DNA of 64,000 nt from Armatimonadota bacterium. Its GTDB lineage: Bacteria; Armatimonadota; Fimbriimonadia; Fimbriimonadales; Fimbriimonadaceae. The stretch covers positions 62,001 to 126,000 of the forward strand of contig JACRPN010000014.1 of the NCBI GenBank assembly GCA_016223145.1, written 5' to 3'. The notes below the pieces were generated by a model, which saw only the letters and a list, made by a program, of their open reading frames with translations, searched no databases and was not told where the DNA came from. Below, piece by piece: positions 27,754 through 49,231 of this stretch; position 1 is the stretch's first letter; each line of letters opens with the position of its first letter. The position numbers and the translations under genes were made by a program.

Positions 27754-28356
27754 ACCGGCATTATACGACTCTGCGATGTCAGGTGGGCCAGCTCATTCGT
27801 CACAGCACACGTTCAGGACTTCGACATTGCGGCCGGCTCACCTTGAGTAACCAAGGCGAGACGCCTGGGCTACAACGGCATGTGCAACCCCCTCACCCGG
27901 TTCGCTCCGCTCACCGTCCTCTCCCCGCCCGGGCGAGGTGGAGGTTGCCGGCTCTGTCGGAGTCTCGCCCTCCACCCTTCCACCCCTCCACCCTTCCACA
28001 CTCTCCACACTTTCCGCTCCGCTAACCGTCCTCTCCCCGTCGGGGCGAGGTGGAGGTTGCCGGCTCGGTCGGAGTCTCGCCCTCCACCCTTCCACCCCTC
28101 CACCCTTCCACACTTCCACACTCTCCACACTCTCCGCTCCGCTCACCGTCCTCCCCCCGTCGGGGCGAGGTGGAGGTTGCCGGCTCGGTCGGAGTCTCGC
28201 CCTCCGCCCTTCCACCCGTCCACCCTTCCACACTCTCCGCTCCGCTCACCGTCCTCCCCCCGTCGGGGCGAGGTGGGGACACATTGTGCGAGGTGGCCTT
28301 ATAGCAGAAGAGCCCAGGCGAGACGCCTGGGCTCTTCTGGACTTGCCTGACTCAGT
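27754..28356. repeat. Imperfect tandem repeat array flanked by palindromes
   Basis: Three to four imperfect units of 103-120 bases start at about 27933, 28045, 28165 and 28268. Each has a GGGCGAGGTGGAGG core and a pyrimidine-rich CCTTCCACCC stretch. Copies of a GGCG-AGA-CGCC palindrome bracket the array: a partial one at 27851-27871 and a perfect 15-bp-arm one at 28306-28338. The second lies just downstream of the pyrophosphatase stop and could end its transcript. Frames are open on both strands only because of the repetition, so I do not call a gene. Confidence 0.75.
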
Positions 28357-37210: not shown

Positions 37211-37595
37211 ACCTGGAGTATATACCGGGTTCAAGCGTCCTTGGTGATCCGTGAGCCAGCCTCGCCCTCTCTCAGTCCGCCCCCATCTTCTTTCTTAGTT
37301 GCCCCGCTTCCCCCCAAAACGGGGACAGAAGAGAGTAGCCGGGGGTCGAGCGAAGCGACCCCCTGGACCAGGCGCAACCCGAAGCCGCAATCCGGGCGGC
37401 CGCCACCCCGCCCCAGTCCTCCATGACCTCAGCGGGGTCAGAAGGCAGTAGCCAGGGGTTGAGCGAAGCGACACCTCTGGACTAGGCGCAACCCAACCCC
37501 CGCACCCCGCAAGGGGTGCCACAAGGCCCATCGCACTCGCAACGTCGCCCTTCGCCGGCGTCCAAGCCCAAACCTCTGTCGTACAATGCAGGATC
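37211..37595. repeat. Two intergenic copies of the AGCGAAGCGA repeat
   Basis: Copy one is about 37309-37430 and copy two about 37430-37525. Both have a leading CCCC..GGGG hairpin with GACAGAAG or GTCAGAAGG, then GTAGCC, GGGG, a GAGCGAAGCGA core, CCCC/CCTCTGG, and GGCGCAACCC. The second ends in GCACCCCGCAAGGGGTGCCA, another hairpin. A third copy is embedded in the gene at 48062-49231. No gene is evident here. Confidence 0.75.
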
Positions 37596-48061: not shown

Positions 48062-49231
48062 CTACCGCTCCAACAGCGTCCACTTTTCCCTTTTCGCCCG
48101 GTCCCATTCGGCGACGAAGGACCACCAGTTGCGCAGCTTCTTGCCCTTATAGGTCAGGCCGTGGTTCAGGCCGGGGATCGCTTGCATCCAGTAGATGCGC
48201 CACTTGATCGGCTCGCGGCCCCAGCGGTCGGCGCTCATCATCTGGGTCTTGCCGCCGCCGTCGGGCTTCCAGTCCTCGATGTCGGTCTCGACGGTGCGCG
48301 GGTTGGTCCAATCGTAGTCGCTCTCGCTGTTGGGCGCGTAGTGGGTCCATCCGCAGTGGGCGGGCTTGGTGACGATCTTGTGCGAGATGTCGCTGCCGAC
48401 GAAGTTGCCCCAGAAGAGCAGCTCGGGCCACTTCTCGGGCGGGGCGGTGTCTCGGCCGTCGATGTGGTTGATCAGGTGCTCGAGCTGGTGCATGTGGTTT
48501 TCGAGCATCTCGCCCAGCTCGCGGCCGTAGTTGAAGTGGAAGACGGTGTAGGTCTTGCTGAAGACGGGCAGGTCGGTCTCGTCGCGGTCCGAGTTGCTGA
48601 CGTCGCCGGTGGGGCTGGACATGTTGGATTCCCAGAGCCCGTTCTTGCCGTGGTAGCCCCACATCCAGATTTGCTTTACGCCCTTCTTTTCGACCCAGGT
48701 TTTGGCGTCAATGCGCTTCATAACGGCGTTGTAGTCGAGCAGGGGCTCATCTTCGCTCCTCTCTGGATTCCTGAGAAACGACCCCGCAGGGGTCAAAGAA
48801 AGTAGCCCGGGGTTGAGCGAAGCGACACCCCGGGTCCGCGAGCGCCCCAAGTCCTGCACCCCGGAGGGGTGCCAGAGATCTGCTGCTGCGCCTATCTGCC
48901 CCTTCTTGGCGCGGATGGGAATGCCCTCTTTGATGACCATCTCCCCGACGACCTCGTACTTCAGGGCGGGCTTGCTCGGGAGCTTGTAGCCCCGGAAGCG
49001 CGAGCCCTCCTCCAGCGCGGCGCAGGCTTCTTTGGTCAGGCGGTCGGTCTTGGCCTTCAGGCCGGCGTAGCCTCCGCCCGCGCGGACCGAGGCGTTGTAG
49101 GCCTCCTCGGTGGCGACGGTCTTATCAATCTGGTCGCCGACGACGGGGTAGTAGCCCACAACGAAGATCTTGATGGTCTGGGTCTGCTGAAGGGCCAGGG
49201 CCAATATCGCGGCGGTGAGAGAAAGTACCAT
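48062..49231 (-). CDS. Secreted protein of unknown function with repeat-derived insert
   Basis: 389 residues. Signal-like helix 1-16. Conserved-looking core: WMWGYHGKNGLWESNMSSP, VFHFNYGRELGEMLENHMHQLEHLINHIDG, WGNFVGS, HCGWTHYAPNSESDYDW. Such WGYHG/ESNM sequences appear, from memory, in actinobacteria and proteobacteria without function. Residues ~115-159 (48755-48889) are unlike the core and match the AGCGAAGCGA repeat. Histidine-rich, so a metal site is conceivable. It lies 14 bases after another minus-strand gene. Confidence 0.8.
   Translation of the reverse strand: MVLSLTAAILALALQQTQTIKIFVVGYYPVVGDQIDKTVATEEAYNASVRAGGGYAGLKAKTDRLTKEACAALEEGSRFRGYKLPSKPALKYEVVGEMVIKEGIPIRAKKGQIGAAADLWHPSGVQDLGRSRTRGVASLNPGLLSLTPAGSFLRNPERSEDEPLLDYNAVMKRIDAKTWVEKKGVKQIWMWGYHGKNGLWESNMSSPTGDVSNSDRDETDLPVFSKTYTVFHFNYGRELGEMLENHMHQLEHLINHIDGRDTAPPEKWPELLFWGNFVGSDISHKIVTKPAHCGWTHYAPNSESDYDWTNPRTVETDIEDWKPDGGGKTQMMSADRWGREPIKWRIYWMQAIPGLNHGLTYKGKKLRNWWSFVAEWDRAKREKWTLLER
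48755..48889. repeat. AGCGAAGCGA repeat inserted in frame in a secreted protein
   Basis: About 100 bases (48782-48880) align with the intergenic copy at 37430-37520. They share a GACC..GGGGTCA hairpin, GTAGCC, a GGGGTTGAGCGAAGCGACACC block, and a terminal GCACCCC..GGGGTGCCA hairpin. The element is read in frame as about 45 codons. Confidence 0.85.

Follow-up and report, generated by a model that had tools for sequence, protein, structure and literature searches.

The segment at positions 48780-48874 of the window (i.e., the whole 64,000-nucleotide stretch of DNA that was analyzed) can be assigned, with a probability of about 0.86, to a non-autonomous REP-like mobile element, namely the solo form of inverted terminal repeats that lie around genes for an IS200-like HUH tyrosine transposase (TnpA-Y1). 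This reading builds on the direct observation of a repeat family with covarying hairpins and dispersed copies, of empty sites in relatives, and of tnpA genes flanked by the repeat. The link to a transposase did not form part of the earlier note on this DNA, which had reported a repeat shared between intergenic sequence and a coding gene.

Three copies of the repeat were found within the 64-kb window, all of them on the + strand:

37308-37405, + strand: intergenic copy 1, degenerate (R1 genome search, 40 bits, E 3.3e-5)
37425-37521, + strand: intergenic copy 2, in tandem with copy 1 (R1 genome search, 96 bits)
48780-48874, + strand: genic copy of the three-hairpin repeat (BLAST; covariance model R1, 103 bits; folds as single-stranded DNA, z -2.5)

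A 33-base core pattern matched exactly these three copies, with none expected from 100 shuffles. When the host genome (G000; 3.87 Mb in 23 contigs, 97% complete) was searched by BLAST with the 95-base query from the gene, 24 places were returned at E <= 10, and the best non-self match elsewhere in the genome showed 80% identity across the full 95 bases (E = 8.9e-18). The alignment between genic and intergenic copies claimed in the earlier note is therefore far above chance. A covariance model (R1), built from 13 copies and used at a threshold of E <= 0.01, identified 33 copies in the host genome. Among the 30 copies scored for gene context, only that at 48780-48874 was genic, having same-frame coding-like sequence on both sides. 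Some copies form tandem pairs, e.g., 37308-37521, and most are distant from any tnpA. Given that copies of the host genome are only ~73-88% identical in their BLAST matches, there is no clear sign that the family has recently been active there, and it may be inactive.

The covariance-model search detected the repeat in 12 of 61 genomes including the host, i.e., in 11 of 60 relatives (labelled here by G numbers), with copy numbers of 44 in G036, 42 in G015, 16 each in G014 and G016, and two in G024. Inverted pairs ~20 bases apart, as in REP doublets, were common among the relatives' copies, an example being G016:C9:121443-121531(+)/121548-121638(-).

The repeat unit is ~96 bp long and consists, in order, of a first hairpin (H1), a GTAG tag, a second hairpin (H2), a spacer and a third hairpin (H3). 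Its 5' part comprises H1, GACCCC(AAC)GGGGTC, and a short AGAAGAGA-like linker that leads to GTAG; in the middle are H2, CCAGGGGTT(GAGCGAAGCGA)AACCCCTGG, and a variable spacer of ~22 bases; and the 3' end is formed by H3, GCACCCC(GCAA)GGGGTGCCA. The genic copy contains the following parts:

48780-48794, + strand: hairpin H1, GACCCC GCA GGGGTC (DNA fold; compensatory changes in the family)
48802-48805, + strand: GTAG tetranucleotide at the foot of H2 (sequence; TAGCC in 11 of 13 and 75 of 104 copies)
48806-48834, + strand: hairpin H2 with the GAGCGAAGCGA loop core (DNA fold; covariation)
48856-48872, + strand: hairpin H3, GCACCCC GGA GGGGTGC (DNA fold; covariation)

The genic copy thus has all three features named in the earlier note: a leading hairpin, the GAGCGAAGCGA core and a terminal GCACCCC..GGGGTGC hairpin. 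Amongst the 13 core copies, the tag was read as GTAGCC in eight and as GTRGCC in ten, with TAGCC being retained in the wider set in the proportion listed above. Folding of three copies as single-stranded DNA yielded H1, H2 and H3, with z-scores of -2.5 to -3.7. Across 104 aligned copies, the majority of them from relatives, 95% of the cells formed pairs and 20 of the 23 pairs displayed changes on both sides; shuffled alignments gave 12.4 such pairs and slid ones no more than 13. Compensatory cells numbered 287, against 83 in shuffles. Although this alignment was fitted to the covariance model, which favors pairing, the strength of the compensatory signal goes beyond what such fitting explains, and the three hairpins of the family do covary.

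The gene that carries the third copy runs on the opposite strand:

48062-49231, - strand: host gene of 389 codons, encoding an exported-looking hypothetical protein that carries the insert (ORF list)
48755-48898, - strand: 144-bp (48-codon) insert, residues 112-159 (protein and DNA alignments to seven orthologues and four distant homologues)

Searches against Pfam with the host protein and against NCBIfam with the protein minus its insert matched no family. Orthologues with 68-81% identity were found in seven relatives from seven genera, and each match broke at one spot, covering approximately residues 5-112 and 156-388; among the named records with the closest homologues are Chthonomonas sp. 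UBA2362 and one bin of Fimbriimonadaceae, by which the host would be placed in that family, within Armatimonadota. By both protein and DNA alignments the insert was absent from all seven orthologues, and it was likewise absent from four more distant homologues in bins labelled Planctomycetota, Lentisphaerae and others. The insertion site was therefore formerly empty, which bears out the proposal that the element can land in a gene. The extra segment itself was also confirmed, although its size is 48 codons rather than the ~45 first estimated, and the element makes up 95 of its 144 bases. The ~24 further bases on each side fall outside the repeat consensus and may represent local linker variation or drifted ends of the element. 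No target-site duplication was seen at the ends of the insert, and no fixed target motif was found for the repeat.

The reading frame of the host gene contains no stop or frameshift across its 389 codons. It stayed open because the net length is 144 bp and the antisense frame of the element is free of stops, and this was not automatic, since antisense frame 0, which is that used in the gene, is open in only eight of 30 repeat copies. Codon scores were 0.29 and 0.34 in the flanks versus -0.14 in the element. While the earlier claim that the element landed in the gene stands, that of its translation is more guarded: the intact frame and the coding-like codon use on either side suggest that the insert is translated. 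It sits within a linker whose length varies among orthologues. In a structure prediction for the host protein, mean pLDDT was 48.7, too low for a fold search, so that the model was used solely for the low confidence of residues 111-161, which scored lowest (pLDDT 23-32). A codon-score screen of the 104 copies, nearly all of which are from relatives, revealed no genic copy; the score was trained on the window and is poorly calibrated in those genomes, making this a weak screen.

Within the host genome there were 12 matches to Y1_Tnp. One such HUH gene, at G000:C5:206433-206876, lies between copies of the repeat, two upstream (+) and one downstream (-), the nearest lying no more than ~20 bp away. 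Convergent copies with H3 facing the gene likewise enclose tnpA at three loci of G036 and in G033 and G035, as well as a Y1 gene of G016 that looks decayed. The transposase of the C5 locus scored 65.7 bits against the IS200/IS605 model NF033573 (cut-off 55) and 78.5 bits against PF01797. All four bracketed transposases that were scanned pass the IS200/IS605 NCBIfam model, whereas none of the four reaches the model for REP-associated transposases (RAYT), NF047646 (24.4 bits or no match; cut-off 80). The bracketed transposases retain the HUH (DHVH at the C5 locus), WQ and Y-x3-Q motifs, and their core is homologous to PDB 2fyx, 2xm3 and 2a6m. When compared with Table 1 of PMC6006769, their motifs fit subclass 1.2 and not class 2: DH[IV]H, WQ, Y-x3-Q-x2-HH and a length of ~148 aa were all found, with RH in place of HH in the G000 gene, this assignment being by published signatures. 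Neither G014 (16 copies) nor G024 (two copies) had a Y1_Tnp match, which suggests that the transposase has been lost or lies in a missing part of the genome. At G013:C31:49500-52500, repeat copies bracket ~550 bases without a recognizable HUH gene; this interior possibly holds tnpA remains or other cargo.

It is unlikely, in our judgment, that the element truly inserted but left behind a gene that has lost its function or is poorly expressed, with the insert absent from any working protein. The insert does have the lowest confidence in a weak structure model, and three stable hairpins could hinder translation; however, the 389 codons are uninterrupted, coding scores on either side resemble those of the training genes, and the insert occupies a linker that tolerates different lengths among orthologues. 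We consider it very unlikely that the repeats have no link to a transposase and instead represent structured RNAs or regulatory hairpins (terminators or attenuators) that multiplied by recombination. Such an origin would suit G+C-rich, mostly intergenic hairpins whose pairs covary, but an Rfam search produced no relevant family, and the repeats bracket tnpA as inverted pairs in several genera, with a similar layout in another phylum. Neither this bracketing nor the copy inside a gene is predicted by a terminator family, and both therefore count against such a role.

An assembly artefact seems more improbable again. The insert is known from one genome, assembled in 23 contigs at 97% completeness; a 95-bp repeat, however, is shorter than ordinary reads, and both flanks belong to one gene, whereas misjoining at a repeat would exchange the flanks and not place the repeat inside a single gene. 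Hardly credible at all is a lineage-specific coding expansion from which the intergenic copies were derived. The intact frame and a net length that is a multiple of three would agree with such an expansion, but the codon score falls sharply from the flanks into the element, copies occur in relatives where the host gene was not found, e.g., G036 and G015, and the orthologues hold no trace of the insert.

For the preferred reading, a mobile REP-like element served by TnpA-Y1, we infer the action of the transposase, the single-strand route, the chemistry and the strand by analogy with TnpA-IS200 and TnpA-REP. As in those systems, the transposase would bind hairpin H2 in single-stranded form, with the TAG-type tag at the base of the hairpin as a guide, such that tag and H2 together would form the recognition unit. 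It would then cut and rejoin single-stranded DNA, thereby copying or moving the element to new places. One copy has landed inside the gene at 48062-49231, and 48 residues of foreign origin would have been added to a variable linker loop of the protein.

Inverted repeats at such tnpA genes proved to be widespread. A search by alignment identified subclass 1.2-like tnpA genes in 83 of the 291 Armatimonadota genomes sampled, and a flanking inverted repeat scored well above shuffles at 24 of the 28 phylum-wide tnpA loci tested; none of 1000 random window placements reached 34, while positive loci scored at least 47. Despite divergent sequence, many of these repeats share the layout of the element: two hairpins separated by 7-12 bases and nTAGC (or a close variant), then a spacer and a last hairpin. 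At the hairpin feet TAG was present in 18 of 30 cases (shuffle mean 8) and AGC in 27 of the 30; it may thus be AGC, not GTAG, that stays constant. Repeat types cluster on the transposase tree (values as low arose in 2-3 of 500 shuffles), the pattern predicted for transposases that each retain a repeat of their own. A second repeat family (AGGCCC..GGGCC - AGCGAAGGGC..GCCCTGG), with an AGCGAAGGGC core, flanks a subclass 1.2-like tnpA at G000:C5:138328-139134 and has 12 matches across the host genome. Both homologues found on Bacteroidota plasmids also have flanking inverted repeats. That of Persicobacter reads CACCCCAAAGGGGTG-ACACTTAT-TAG-CGATGGGTGTTAACCCATCG-spacer-AACCCTGAAGGGGTT, a complete three-hairpin arrangement; related sequence was detected nine times on the plasmid that carries it and once on another replicon (~10 copies). 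The Bernardetia locus is flanked by inverted repeats in which the three-hairpin layout is less clear. On balance, these data favor the view that, in both Armatimonadota and Bacteroidota, subclass 1.2 TnpA-Y1 transposases constitute a mobile system in its own right, in which inverted H1-(n)TAG-H2-H3 units bracket each gene and solo units spread, occasionally in frame into proteins.

This system shares features with several known ones. The transposase core is homologous to that of IS200/IS605, with HUH and a catalytic tyrosine. IS200/IS605 ends carry small subterminal hairpins, whereas the ends here are long inverted copies of one ~96-bp three-hairpin unit. GTAG REP elements together with RAYT/TnpA-REP constitute REPtrons (PMC3733652, PMC2817692). 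As in GTAG REPs, a GTAG-type tag lies at the foot of an imperfect hairpin (GT[AG]G, 0-2 nt 5' of the hairpin) and some copies are inside genes (also reported in PMC3733652); as in REPtrons, inverted copies surround an HUH tyrosine transposase gene and others are dispersed, in tandem or in inverted pairs. Unlike GTAG REPs, which are single palindromes of 20-40 bp, the unit has ~96 bp and three covarying hairpins, and copies number tens, not hundreds; unlike the class 2 RAYT of REPtrons (Y-x3-NP), the transposase is IS200-like class 1 with Y-x3-Q and fails the NCBIfam RAYT model.

Di Nocera and colleagues (PMC3733652) reported tyrosine transposases that lie between terminal inverted repeats (TIRs), copies of which are also dispersed. 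As in these TIRtrons/TIRYT, long inverted repeats bracket a tyrosine transposase gene here and a dispersed repeat family accompanies it. Known TIRYTs, however, belong to subclasses 2.1, 2.2 and 2.5 (PMC6006769), whereas the present transposases have subclass 1.2 signatures. The possible common TIR motif GGGGWSAS was counted in only 17 of 104 copies, against a shuffle mean of 4.2. Subclass 1.2 TnpA-Y1 is listed with "no" REP, as generally without typical terminal structures and as occurring mainly in Cyanobacteria and Bacteroidetes (PMC6006769). Length, the DH[IV]H, WQ and Y-x3-Q-x2-HH motifs and low copy number agree with that subclass; in contrast to its published members, inverted hairpin repeats flank most loci, and do so in Armatimonadota. 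Rickettsia palindromic elements, as cited in PMC3733652, are palindromic repeats lying in frame within coding genes. By description, they resemble the present element in being inserted in frame in an ORF with empty orthologues. Their host is different, and in the present family one of 30 scored copies is genic.

Intragenic REPs, including clusters that code for tens of residues, have already been described by Di Nocera and colleagues (PMC3733652), and the gene insertion is accordingly a new case of a known phenomenon. In the open-access literature we found no description of subclass 1.2 transposases paired with three-hairpin inverted repeats, though an earlier one is possible, and no report for Armatimonadota of a REP-like element adding residues to a protein. 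With its eleven empty-site homologues, the present gene offers a clean case for this phylum. Moreover, an orphan transposase subclass gains a likely DNA partner, by which its function becomes testable, and the long ends with their three hairpins could represent an intermediate form linking the ends of insertion sequences to short REPs.

Some further repeats were noted in passing. Class 2 RAYT-like genes (Y-x3-NP) on host contigs C13, C9 and C10 (loci L100, L101 and L102, respectively) have flanking inverted repeats of their own. At 27889-27903 (-), the window contains a copy of another dispersed repeat, GAACCGGGTGAGGGG, with 73 exact copies in the genome and none for the reversed control; GAGCGGAGCGA, in front of it, is similar to the core of the repeat studied here but seems to belong to a different family. 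Finally, at 2150-2250 of locus L019, a tandem GAGGTCC run is located close to where an apparently nrdR-like coding region ends.
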